Below, piece by piece: positions 58,978-62,448 of a stretch of DNA of 64,000 nucleotides (its first letter is position 1; every line of letters starts with the position of its first letter). Both the position numbers and the translations under genes were made by a program. The DNA is taken from assembly GCA_013140985.1 (NCBI GenBank), contig JABFRU010000042.1:1-64000 (forward strand). Direction: 5' to 3'. Origin of the DNA: Chitinophagaceae bacterium. Its GTDB lineage: Bacteria; Bacteroidota; Bacteroidia; Chitinophagales; Chitinophagaceae. A model generated the notes under the pieces. It had not been told where the DNA came from. It saw only the letters and a program-made list of their open reading frames with translations, and did not search any database.

Positions 58978-61900
58978 ATGGAATACAATTTCAGAGATAT
59001 TGAAAAGAAATGGCAGCAATGGTGGAGCGAGAATAAGGTATATAAAGTGTCGAATGATTCACCCAAACCAAAATGTTATGTGCTCGATATGTTCCCGTAT
59101 CCGAGTGGCGCCGGTTTGCATGTGGGACATCCGCTGGGTTATATTGCCAGCGATATTTACAGCCGTTATAAAAGATTAAAAGGTTTCAATGTGCTGCACC
59201 CGATGGGATATGATGCATTTGGTTTGCCGGCGGAACAATATGCAATTGAGCATGGCATTCATCCTGCTGTTTCCACTGCAGCTAACATAAAAAATTTCAG
59301 AAGTCAGCTGGATAAGATCGGTTTTTGTTATGACTGGGACCGGGAAGTGAATACTTCCAAACCCGGTTATTATAAATGGACACAGTGGATCTTTCTGCAA
59401 TTGTTCAACAGTTATTTCTGTCATACAGAAAAGAAAGCATTGCCCATTTCAAAGCTTATAAAAAAATATGAAGAGAAAGGAGCAGTACCAAAAACCGGGG
59501 AGTTCATTCCCGGCAAACATTTTACGGCTGAGCAATGGAAAGCTTTTTCTGAAAAAGAGAAAGCCGATGTTTTGATGAGGAGACGACTGGCTTATTGCGG
59601 TTACGGAGAAGTGAACTGGTGCGAAGCATTGGGAACTGTTTTGGCCAATGACGAAGTAGTGAATGGTGTGAGTGAAAGAGGAGGTCATCCTGTAGTGAAA
59701 AAAACATTGCGTCAATGGTATTTAAGAATTACGGAATATGCTGATCGTTTGCTTGAAGGACTTGACAAAGTTGATTTCAGTGATGCGATGAAAGAGATGC
59801 AGACGAATTGGATCGGTAAATCAACGGGAGCGGAAATAGACTTTAAGCTTTGGGGCGGGGCCTCACCCTTACCCTCTCCTGGCGGAGAGGAAATTTCGCA
59901 AGACCCCGTTAAAGAAAAATTCTTCAGGACGGCCGATAGCGGTAACTGGCATATATTAAAAAAATATGGCCGGGAAAATAGAAAAGATCCAACGGAAGCG
60001 GAAGATATTTTGTGGCAACGTCTTCGCAATAATCAATTGGGTGCAAAGGTTCGCCGGCAACATGCCATCCAGGGTTATATTGCTGATTTTGTTTTTCTCG
60101 AAGTAAAACTGGTGATAGAAGTAGATGGCGAATATCATAATGAAGAGGAGCAAAAAATATATGATGATGCAAGAACAAAATTTCTGAATGAGTTTGGCTT
60201 GCAATTATTACGGTTCACTAATGAAGAAGTAATAAGTAACACAGAAAAAGTAATAAATGAAATAAAAAGTTCGATAGAACAACAAAGACAAAAATTTAAA
60301 ACAACTGCTGCTGACGGAGAACTGTCTCCCTCTCCGCAAGGAGAGGGCCGGGGTGAGGCTAAACTCCGGGTTTACACCACAAGACCCGATACTATTTTCG
60401 GCGTTGACTTCATGGTCATTGCACCGGAGCATGAACTGGTAGAAGAAATTACAACCGACGAACAAAAGCAAGCCGTTGATGAGTACATCGCCTATGTAAA
60501 AAGCAGGAGTGAAAGAGAACGCATGGCGGAGAAAAAGATCAGTGGTGTATTTACCGGCGCTTATGCATTGAATCCATTTAACGGAAGAGAAATTCCTATC
60601 TGGATATCAGAATATGTGTTGGCAGGATATGGCACCGGCGCTATCATGGGTGTGCCCTGCGGCGATGAAAGAGATCACCGGTTTGCAAAGCATTTCAATA
60701 TTCCCATCACCAATATCATTGGTGAATATTATACTGGAGAAGATGCGAATCCTACTTACGATGCTGTGTTAGAGAACAGCGATTTCATCAATGGGATGAA
60801 GATGAAAGATGCGATTGATGTGGTAGTAAGGAAGGTGGAAGAAATGGGAATTGGCCAACGCAAAGTGAATTATAAAATGCGGGATGCCGCATTCAGCCGC
60901 CAGCGCTACTGGGGCGAACCATTTCCTATTGTTTGGAAAAATGAAATTGCATATCCATTGAGTGAGTCTGAATTGCCGGTGGAGTTGCCGCACATGGATG
61001 ACCTCAAACCTGGTCCCGATGCGCAAGGTCCATTGGCAAATCTTACGGAGTGGATTAATCTCCCCTCTCCGTCAGGAGAGGGGTTGGGGGTGAGGCGAGA
61101 AGTGAACACCATGCCCGGCTATGCAGGAAGCAGTTGGTATTTTTTAAGATACATGGATCCTGATAATGAAAAAGAATTCTGTTCCCGTAAAGCAGCTGAT
61201 TATTGGGGACAGGTTGATCTGTATATTGGCGGAACTGAACATGCAGTAGGTCATTTATTATACAGCCGCATGTGGACGAAATTTTTATTTGATCTTGGTT
61301 TGATAGAACATGATGAGCCGTATAAAAGATTGGTGAACCAGGGGATGATACAGGGGAGTAGCAGGTTCGCTTATTTTCTTACCGTAAATTATTCTTCACT
61401 TAATTCTGAAAGTAAATCAACAAGAGTATTTCTTTCAAAAAAGTGGGTTGATATAATTGAATCCGACAATACTCAAAAATTCATCTCAGAAAAAATCAGC
61501 GAAGTTCTAGGCAAAAAAATCGCATTGCATCATGTGGATGTATCATATGGCGAAAAACCAATACCGACACATGTTGATGTAAATATTGTTGATGGTGTTG
61601 AATTAGATATTGAGGCATTTAAGAGATGGAGAAGCGGCGAATATGCAAACGCAGAATTTATCTTAGAAGATGGCAAATACATCTGCGGTGTTGAAACAGA
61701 AAAAATGTCCAAATCAAAATTCAATACTGTCAATCCCGATGATCTTGTAATGAAATACGGCGCCGACACTTTCCGCATGTATGAAATGTTTCTCGGCCCG
61801 GTAGAAATGAGCAAGCCATGGGATACAAAAGGTATCGAAGGTGTTCATCGTTTCCTGAAAAAATTCTGGCGCTTGTTTTTTAAGGAATCTAATTCTCCCT

Positions 61901-62448
61901 CTCCGCAAGGAGAGGGTCGGGGTGAGGCCTTTCTGGTCACCAATGATGAACCAACAGCAGAAGAATTAAAAGTATTACACAACACAATACGTAAAATAGA
62001 ATCTGATACCGAACGATTCAGTTTCAATACCGGTGTCAGCGCATTTATGATCGCTACCAATGAGCTTACCGATCTGAAATGCCATAAAAGAAAAATACTT
62101 GAACCATTACTCATTCTTTTAGCTCCTTACGCACCGCATATTTCAGAGGAATTGTATGCACAGCTACGAAATTCTCCCTCTCCGCCAGGAGAGGGTGGGG
62201 GTGAGGCTTCTATCCTCAATGCTTCCTATCCTGTTTTTGAAGATAAATATGTGAAAGAAACAACCAAAGCTTATCCCGTTGCGATAAATGGAAAGACAAG
62301 ATCGGAACTGACGCTTTCTTTGGATGTAACGCAGGAACAGGTAGAGCAAATAGTTTTGCAGGATCCCATCGTTCAAAAATGGCTGGATGGTAAAACCCCG
62401 AAAAAGATCATTTATGTAAAAAACAAGATGATCAATGTGGTGATATAG
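58978..62448 (+). CDS. leuS: Leucyl-tRNA synthetase with in-frame repeat and DUF559 insertions
   Basis: Charges tRNA-Leu with leucine. 1156 residues, about 200 more than expected. HIGH motif GLHVGH (residues 46-51), KMSKS motif at 909-913, the CP1 editing domain with TTRPDT and GDERDHRF, and the class I anticodon domain are intact. The excess comes from four insertions: residues about 295-461 (a DUF559 nuclease-like domain between two inverted palindromic repeats, placed in CP1 just before VYTTRPDT), and three short ones at about 695-707, 973-984 and 1066-1077 (read as SPSPQGEGRGEA-like peptides). All fall in loops and keep the frame, so the protein is probably active. Without them the length is about 950, normal for the phylum. 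Confidence 0.96.
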   Translation: MEYNFRDIEKKWQQWWSENKVYKVSNDSPKPKCYVLDMFPYPSGAGLHVGHPLGYIASDIYSRYKRLKGFNVLHPMGYDAFGLPAEQYAIEHGIHPAVSTAANIKNFRSQLDKIGFCYDWDREVNTSKPGYYKWTQWIFLQLFNSYFCHTEKKALPISKLIKKYEEKGAVPKTGEFIPGKHFTAEQWKAFSEKEKADVLMRRRLAYCGYGEVNWCEALGTVLANDEVVNGVSERGGHPVVKKTLRQWYLRITEYADRLLEGLDKVDFSDAMKEMQTNWIGKSTGAEIDFKLWGGASPLPSPGGEEISQDPVKEKFFRTADSGNWHILKKYGRENRKDPTEAEDILWQRLRNNQLGAKVRRQHAIQGYIADFVFLEVKLVIEVDGEYHNEEEQKIYDDARTKFLNEFGLQLLRFTNEEVISNTEKVINEIKSSIEQQRQKFKTTAADGELSPSPQGEGRGEAKLRVYTTRPDTIFGVDFMVIAPEHELVEEITTDEQKQAVDEYIAYVKSRSERERMAEKKISGVFTGAYALNPFNGREIPIWISEYVLAGYGTGAIMGVPCGDERDHRFAKHFNIPITNIIGEYYTGEDANPTYDAVLENSDFINGMKMKDAIDVVVRKVEEMGIGQRKVNYKMRDAAFSRQRYWGEPFPIVWKNEIAYPLSESELPVELPHMDDLKPGPDAQGPLANLTEWINLPSPSGEGLGVRREVNTMPGYAGSSWYFLRYMDPDNEKEFCSRKAADYWGQVDLYIGGTEHAVGHLLYSRMWTKFLFDLGLIEHDEPYKRLVNQGMIQGSSRFAYFLTVNYSSLNSESKSTRVFLSKKWVDIIESDNTQKFISEKISEVLGKKIALHHVDVSYGEKPIPTHVDVNIVDGVELDIEAFKRWRSGEYANAEFILEDGKYICGVETEKMSKSKFNTVNPDDLVMKYGADTFRMYEMFLGPVEMSKPWDTKGIEGVHRFLKKFWRLFFKESNSPSPQGEGRGEAFLVTNDEPTAEELKVLHNTIRKIESDTERFSFNTGVSAFMIATNELTDLKCHKRKILEPLLILLAPYAPHISEELYAQLRNSPSPPGEGGGEASILNASYPVFEDKYVKETTKAYPVAINGKTRSELTLSLDVTQEQVEQIVLQDPIVQKWLDGKTPKKIIYVKNKMINVVI
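59860..59890 (-). repeat. Palindromic element copy 1 (inverted, left end of composite)
   Basis: Reads GCCTCACCC to GGAGAGG. The stem CCTCTCC/GGAGAGG has a TGGC loop. In complement it also keeps the AAATT flank seen before copy 5. Confidence 0.8.
60326..60359 (+). repeat. Palindromic element copy 2 (right end of composite)
   Basis: 34 bp: stem CCCTCTCC/GGAGAGGG (8 bp) with GCAA loop, then CCGGGGTGAGGC. Differs from copy 4 at one base. Translated LSPSPQGEGRGEAK. Confidence 0.85.
61060..61096 (+). repeat. Palindromic element copy 3 within leuS
   Basis: 37 bp; stem CCCCTCTCC/GGAGAGGGG (9 bp), loop GTCA, then TTGGGGGTGAGGC. Translated LPSPSGEGLGVRR, just before the conserved NTMPGYAGSSWYF block. 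Confidence 0.85.
61895..61928 (+). repeat. Palindromic element copy 4 within leuS
   Basis: 34 bp; stem CCCTCTCC/GGAGAGGG, GCAA loop, TCGGGGTGAGGC. Preceded by AATT. Translated NSPSPQGEGRGEA in a loop after RFLKKFWRLFF. Confidence 0.85.
62174..62207 (+). repeat. Palindromic element copy 5 within leuS
   Basis: 34 bp; stem CCCTCTCC/GGAGAGGG, GCCA loop, TGGGGGTGAGGC. Preceded by AAATT. Translated NSPSPPGEGGGEA in the loop after ISEELYAQL. Confidence 0.85.

Follow-up and report, generated by a model that had tools for sequence, protein, structure and literature searches.

A palindrome-bounded DUF559 nuclease unit within the leucyl-tRNA synthetase gene of a Chitinophagaceae bacterium and related units in other Bacteroidia

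Inteins place a nuclease domain in frame within conserved proteins, occupy the same sites in distant species and coexist with empty sites, and the DUF559 units considered here resemble them in the in-frame nuclease, the shared sites and the empty sites. The EDxHD homing endonuclease I-Bth0305I (PDB entry 3r3p), related to the DUF559 nuclease by sequence and fold, likewise parasitises host genes, at defined sites for which empty alleles exist. According to the accessible part of its description, I-Bth0305I has tethered DNA-binding regions (PMC3943268), whereas neither an intron, nor splicing, nor an added DNA-binding domain was found with the DUF559 unit, which stays in the frame of its host and is bounded by palindromes. 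Palindromes within protein genes, many of them conserved, are described in the available sections of PMC3733652 as encoding 20-82 amino acids and no nuclease, and the same sections report CGTC REPs as lacking a dedicated transposase. As far as these sources go, Rickettsia palindromic elements and GTAG/CGTC REPs are likewise short in-frame intragenic palindromes, but in the present case the palindromes enclose a nuclease domain. REP/RAYT systems (tnpA-REP) share with the DUF559 units an arrangement in which palindromes flank the gene of a DNA-processing enzyme and bare copies are scattered; that enzyme is a HUH tyrosine transposase, in contrast to the PD-(D/E)XK-type DUF559. Bacteroidetes RAYT subclasses with atypical structures appear in the consulted portion of PMC6006769. 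Vsr shares its fold with the DUF559 insert (1cw0, 1vsr), and the DUF559 protein VsrA of Caulobacter has been proposed to be a very-short-patch repair nuclease; both are free-standing repair enzymes, no fusion of VsrA to a host protein is described in the sections available, and the string 'palindrom' is absent from the main text (PMC12907096). Legionella recombination hotspots contain a transposase/DUF559 segment, according to the available part of PMC12308824. Within the open-access literature, a scope that leaves most subscription papers outside, no earlier description of palindrome-ended DUF559 units inside host genes was found.

The unit within leuS and its nuclease domain

The unit lies in a stretch of 64,000 nucleotides, referred to below as the window (Table 1). 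The earlier note, made from the letters of this DNA, had placed a 500-bp segment with complementary ends in frame within leuS and ascribed to it an apparently intact PD-(D/E)XK-type domain. The coordinates are right, the leuS frame, which also hosts three bare in-frame palindromes, is open across the whole insert, and the domain belongs to DUF559 with 102.7 bits against a curated Pfam cut-off of 20.6. Within the inserted stretch, MTES_1575, also a nuclease family, is the only other Pfam match; a transposase, the mark of a classical insertion sequence, was not among these matches.

Table 1. Features of leuS and of the DUF559 unit (positions in the window)
Feature	Position	Strand	Basis
leuS, leucine--tRNA ligase, 1156 aa	58978..62448	+	ORF and TIGR00396 leuS_bact, 921 bits (cut-off 548)
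Whole element, 500 nt, LeuRS site A, immediately upstream of the editing-domain motif TTRPDT	59860..60359	+	arms, comparison with relatives
Left end: tail GCCTCACCC and hairpin CCTCTCC-TGGC-GGAGAGG	59860..59890	+	inverted arm; hairpin 59873-59890
DUF559 (PF04480) PD-(D/E)XK nuclease-fold domain	59959..60276	+	Pfam, LeuRS residues 328-433, E 1.3e-29
Right end: hairpin CCCTCTCC-GCAA-GGAGAGGG and tail GGGGTGAGGC	60328..60359	+	inverted arm; hairpin 60328-60347
Bare in-frame palindrome, LeuRS site B (DUF559 element here in relative G014)	61063..61095	+	strict pattern
Bare in-frame palindrome, LeuRS site D	61897..61927	+	strict pattern
Bare in-frame palindrome, LeuRS site E	62176..62206	+	strict pattern

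At its outer limits GCCTCACCC (59860-59868) is exactly complementary to GGGTGAGGC (60351-60359), and the complete arms (59860-59890 and 60329-60359, 31 nt) are 87% complementary and form the top pair of 14 inverted pairs in 59500-60800. The arms face outward, with a tail that is C-rich at the left and G-rich at the right, each joined to a pyrimidine/purine hairpin. Their score of 42 exceeds chance, the 99th percentile being 24 among 390 control pairs from the tested loci. The proposal of the earlier note is supported in that a unit whose ends are inverted palindromes brought DUF559 into leuS and kept the frame. An intein was rejected as an explanation, since no intein family occurs among the Pfam matches of 19 host proteins and the roughly 30 amino acids on each side of the window domain offer little space for a splicing domain; a group I or II intron was rejected on the open frame through the unit and on a search of 59500-60800 in which no Rfam match was obtained up to E 1.

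Between 59860 and 60009 no in-frame ATG, GTG or TTG was found, so the full window domain lacks a usual start of its own and is expected to be translated within LeuRS. At least one of these codons occurs in the examined stretch of 71 of 79 internal DUF559 copies, 20 of which also have a Shine-Dalgarno-like motif, and a separate DUF559 product is therefore possible in general. A structure model of the entire LeuRS was too poor for use (mean pLDDT 56.5). The model of the DUF559 domain reached a pLDDT of 79, with a core above 90, and Foldseek placed 3hrl and 3r3p (the latter with E 1.8e-4) at the top and Vsr (1cw0, 1vsr) lower. A sequence search of the PDB returned the same two entries first, 3hrl, an endonuclease-like protein, with E 3e-32 and 3r3p, a mobile intron protein, with E 4e-7, and the viral matches to the domain include proteins named homing endonuclease. 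Residues D370, E381, D383 and H387 are invariant in an alignment of 13 insert-bearing LeuRS proteins, and the corresponding D..ExD...H pattern (D46, E57, D59, H63), which we take to be the active site, is invariant in 19 aligned DUF559 domains. Judged from dN/dS values of 0.024-0.143 in 12 close pairs of 17 compared, the other five being saturated, the nuclease is under purifying selection.

Filled, bare and empty sites and the range of hosts

LeuS was compared between the window, 25 further genomes of the genus and 17 of the same order. Among the 26 same-genus genomes DUF559 occupies site A in the window and in G011 only; the comparison with relatives that the earlier note had proposed thus revealed site A without DUF559 in 24 of the 26, the window counted, with a stretch of 36-63 amino acids in its place. 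The closest relative compared (G026, 84% identical over a 287-aa query) has 36 amino acids there. Between relatives, with one genome bearing another domain set aside (G057), the unfilled stretch varies from 34 to 63 amino acids, which lends indirect support to the idea, also put forward in the earlier note, that the unit landed in a loop. DUF559 is absent from this site in all 17 same-order genomes. In G057, one of these, PBECR3 (PF18812, E 3e-17, locus L148), a nuclease-like domain unrelated to DUF559, occupies leuS residues ~339-447 at site A; region 800-1560 of this locus contains one short inverted pair only, and no flanking palindromic ends were found. Site A could be a hotspot at which nuclease domains insert.

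At site B, which precedes the motif TMPGYAGSSWY, the window has a bare palindrome and G014 a DUF559 element. Short insertions with different letters are present there in G031, G021, G008 and G019, and the site is short in most of the remaining readable genomes (two sequences, G007 and G020, end before it and G011 ends inside it). A palindrome-like peptide occurs in G031 at site D and in G009 and G021 at site E. In another genus, the acetyl-CoA synthetase gene is filled at three and short at nine of 17 loci; the five loci that a motif search left unread have frames of 632-640 aa, compared with 782-791 aa in filled ones, and so are too short to accommodate the domain. A short allele (L308, genome G181) reads TACCCCTCC-TCC-GGTGGGGTG at the site that is filled by DUF559 in congeners, and this single sequence looks like the letters of the outer arms remaining after the inside was lost. 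RecJ is filled in three and empty in three of six congeners. LeuRS sites A and B, RecJ and acetyl-CoA synthetase thus show what is characteristic of homing elements, a nuclease gene that interrupts a site left empty in other alleles.

DUF559 matches (E <=0.001) were obtained in 192 of 396 Bacteroidia genomes, the own genome included. Of the best 150 listed, 83 fall within open reading frames of at least 300 aa and 69 within frames of at least 700 aa. The analysis covered 121 loci, with the long-frame match G130:C55 left out, and 98 of them have more than 190 aa of frame beyond the domain; sixty loci were picked for long frames, so the shares of hosts are no population estimates. BLAST clustering assigned 35 loci to LeuRS, 11 to MetH, five each to CinA, IleRS, RecG and acetyl-CoA synthetase, four to methylmalonyl-CoA mutase, three each to SpoIIE-type proteins, RecJ and HisF (N-terminal), two each to HsdR and MutS, and others to single hosts, whereby one locus is counted twice in LeuRS and in MetH and L024/L026 represent another family. 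Pfam identified DUF559 together with host domains in all 19 hand-picked proteins, and in several of these the host domain is matched as two stretches (AMP-binding, MM_CoA_mutase, CoA_transf_3, Epimerase_2, GH31, DegT and MutS_III). A collection of named genomes yielded at least 580 relatives by one active-site pattern; the best 80 of these, ranked by likeness to the window domain, come from Bacteroidota as far as titles tell, and their carriers include Agriterribacter humi YJ03 (leuS site A, L187), Ilyomonas limi, Flavobacterium difficile (recG, L223), Maribacter luteus and Dysgonomonas sp. PF1-14. Since named isolates carry DUF559 inserts, the pattern is no metagenome artefact. By eye, this collection adds ValRS, MetRS and other hosts, of which MetRS (L257) and ValRS (L262) were confirmed by Pfam.

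This range of hosts bears on the view that DUF559 is a useful Vsr-like repair nuclease fused to host proteins for the benefit of the host. Several hosts do act on DNA (RecG, RecJ, MutS, helicases), the repair function proposed for VsrA in the accessible part of PMC12907096 points in the same direction, and low dN/dS would be expected of a useful enzyme. However, low dN/dS is equally expected of an active selfish enzyme, many hosts are unrelated to DNA (LeuRS, MetH, acetyl-CoA synthetase, GH31, epimerase), and a host benefit accounts poorly for the patchy occurrence within genera, the empty sites and the palindromic ends. We regard this explanation as highly improbable.

Outside Bacteroidota, seven DUF559 loci were inspected of 41 records matched, with arm scores that are raw values read without a control set. 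A Pseudanabaena locus has an arm score of 126 and was negative in the hairpin test, a locus of Deinococcus sp. NW-56 scores 41 and has a left hairpin, three Azospirillum loci score 18-22 and have left-only hairpins, and a phage locus scores 16 and has no hairpins. In Synechocystis sp. B12 the arm score is 25, with hairpins on both sides and a frame open through both; this palindrome-ended unit (L332, on a plasmid) directly follows an annotated DUF1156 gene and precedes a hypothetical protein, and was perhaps inserted into a DUF1156 gene.

The palindromes and their association with DUF559 and RAYT

The strict palindrome pattern has nine copies in the 3.86-Mb genome to which the window belongs, and the reversed pattern has none. 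Four copies lie in leuS (the right end of the unit and the three bare palindromes); of the five others, four are outside frames of at least 110 aa and the fifth falls where a 534-aa frame begins. The half-site GGAGAGGG-N-GGGGTGAGG is present in 94 of 396 Bacteroidia genomes, the own included, all genome-wide statements resting on pattern and profile searches. Short hairpins with an asymmetric tail that are dispersed, with some in-frame intragenic copies, are what defines REPs and palindromic elements, and the palindromes of this genome fit that description. The ends of the window unit are members of this dispersed palindrome family and are not private to the DUF559 element.

The ends and the domain tree were analyzed for 114 of the 121 loci, after removal of L022-L026 (weak matches or other families) and of the second copies L009 and L028; 79 of the 114 are internal, 20 stand-alone and 15 terminal or unclear, and the end tests cover the internal and stand-alone copies. 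Arm scores exceed the 99th percentile of controls from the same locus in 58 of 78 embedded and nine of 20 stand-alone copies. Pyrimidine/purine hairpins within 200 nt on both sides were found at 53 of 78 embedded copies, at five of 20 and 11 of 15 copies in two stand-alone sets, and at one of 409 random spans (N or a short flank removed one of the 79 internal copies and one of 16 in the added stand-alone set). The expectation of the earlier note that DUF559 genes elsewhere would bear the same flanks therefore holds in part: it fits the majority of embedded copies, while hairpins on both sides are missing by this test from 25 of the 78 and from 19 of 35 stand-alone copies. Neither of the two outcomes by which the earlier note would have been refuted, a domain shared by all relatives or DUF559 genes elsewhere without these flanks, was obtained.

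A different account regards the palindromes as REP/MITE-type repeats moved by a RAYT or another transposase, with DUF559 as a trapped passenger. Across 395 genomes, the own set aside, the half-site occurs in 77 of 191 genomes with DUF559 and in 16 of the 204 without it (odds ratio 7.9, P 1e-14, a test that ignores kinship). Y1_Tnp matches, in turn, are present in 269 of 396 Bacteroidia genomes and in 84 of the 93 genomes that carry the half-site (odds ratio 6.0, with the overlap counted by hand and kinship ignored). The half-site thus co-occurs with RAYT nearly as strongly as with DUF559, and co-occurrence, which does not single out DUF559, was rejected as proof of a link. Absence of the half-site pattern from 114 of the 191 DUF559-bearing genomes is expected if the letters of the palindrome vary, and is no proof that they do. 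The passenger account is also in keeping with the occurrence of bare palindromes without DUF559, and with a weak palindrome match, obtained with a looser pattern, ~500 nt from the gene at one of 12 Y1_Tnp loci (L270).

The surroundings of the two kinds of gene differ, however. In ten genomes, none of 23 Y1_Tnp loci has a hairpin within 200 nt on either side, so that these palindromes do not flank the transposase gene as they would in a REP/RAYT system (23 loci kept of 25 tested, from 30 loci, with a fixed gene length and flanks that are approximate for partial matches). Of the 13 embedded DUF559 copies in the same genomes, seven have hairpins on both flanks and 11 on at least one; stand-alone copies have them on both sides in none of four cases. 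The two RAYT-type loci inspected in the own genome (L268, L280) have different palindromes nearby, GTCCCGTAGGGAC and similar. Moreover, among 39 genomes with at least ten half-sites, five are without a Y1_Tnp match, all five with DUF559, and a single one (G355) is without DUF559. Purifying selection on the nuclease likewise speaks against a trapped passenger. RAYT is therefore disfavoured as the cognate mobiliser, and the passenger account as a whole appears unlikely.

Mobility, history and meaning

Insertion and recurrence of DUF559 units are well supported, and the palindromes have a physical link with DUF559 that the tested RAYT-type loci lack. The insert domains of two related SpoIIE-type genes of G064 (L066/L067) share 95.4% of their DNA letters and 97.2% of their residues over 108 codons; the right ends are nearly identical, in the flanks only around half of the positions agree past the first ~100 nt, and one copy begins at a contig edge, its left end lying outside the sequence. 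By sequence, the pair is consistent with homing and recent copying. In the tree of 114 domains an 80-row clade (SH-aLRT 94) consists of embedded or fused copies and contains no stand-alone copy; embedded copies outside this clade include HsdR, one IleRS, one mutase and HisF (N-terminal). The methylmalonyl-CoA mutase copy of genus g44 clusters with LeuRS copies from its own genus (SH-aLRT 99). Site labels change 33 times on this tree, a raw count from few columns with many forks open. Among the best 60 cross-site pairs shown, identity is mostly ~65-80%, so most insertions are not recent, and related species could have inherited their same-site copies from old insertions. Tandem stand-alone DUF559 genes with a spacing of ~560 nt occur in G111 (L168/L176) and G113 (L044/L173), and both units of G111 have the same palindromic ends.

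One might accordingly ask whether all insertions are ancient and inherited, with one or few events per site, many losses, no current mobility, and ends that drift along with the repeats of the genome. The low identity of most copies at different sites would fit such a history, as would the filling of LeuRS sites A and B and of the MetH, RecG and acetyl-CoA synthetase sites in several genera each. It is at odds with the nearly identical copies in two divergent genes of one genome, with the grouping of the mutase copy with LeuRS copies of its genus and with the tandem units in G111, and seems very unlikely.

We consider it probable that the unit is a mobile palindrome-ended element translated together with the host protein, and that homing from palindrome to palindrome, driven by DUF559, is its most likely way of spreading. 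The element comprises ~420-720 nt and a DUF559 (Vsr/EDxHD-like) frame without a stop of its own, and in the window also without a start of its own, flanked by two outward-facing palindromic ends and lying in sense and in frame within conserved protein genes. As the unit would be translated as an additional domain of its host, no splicing would be needed, and insertions would persist where the host protein tolerates the extra domain. The nuclease may nick or cut DNA at palindromes of this kind or close to them; repair of the break would then copy either the DUF559 unit or the palindrome alone, with the palindromes serving as short homology. This would amount to a homing cycle with a dispersed repeat as target, in which bare palindromes are left by partial copying or by loss; the order from bare to filled and that from filled to bare are both compatible with the data. 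Selection in essential genes is expected to produce the in-frame and sense bias, to which the choice of long frames also contributes in part. Among the 61 of 79 copies with placeable arms, no target-site duplication (0 nt) was found in 55 and 2-3 nt in six, which is near chance expectation; the ends were set by local alignment and are approximate. No clear base preference was apparent outside the ends of the copies.

The unit fails the tests made here for an intein, an intron, an insertion sequence and a REP/RAYT system, and would work like a homing endonuclease element; we call it a new kind of element, its mobilising step being one that we infer. In our estimate there is about an even chance that the fuller picture holds, namely a splicing-free nuclease parasite that is a permanent translated domain of essential proteins, homes into dispersed palindromes and seeds bare ones as by-products or targets, with DUF559 as the missing mobiliser of transposase-less palindromes and with similar units in cyanobacteria and Deinococcus.

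If this is right, LeuRS and other essential enzymes in many Bacteroidia would harbour a nuclease domain of foreign origin as a resident parasite, and mobile elements would have a further strategy besides the splicing of inteins and introns and insertion by transposases. DUF559, a nuclease family whose function is unclear, would gain a role, and palindromic repeats so far without a mobiliser would gain a candidate for one. Annotated DUF559 'domain fusions' may likewise be insertions.
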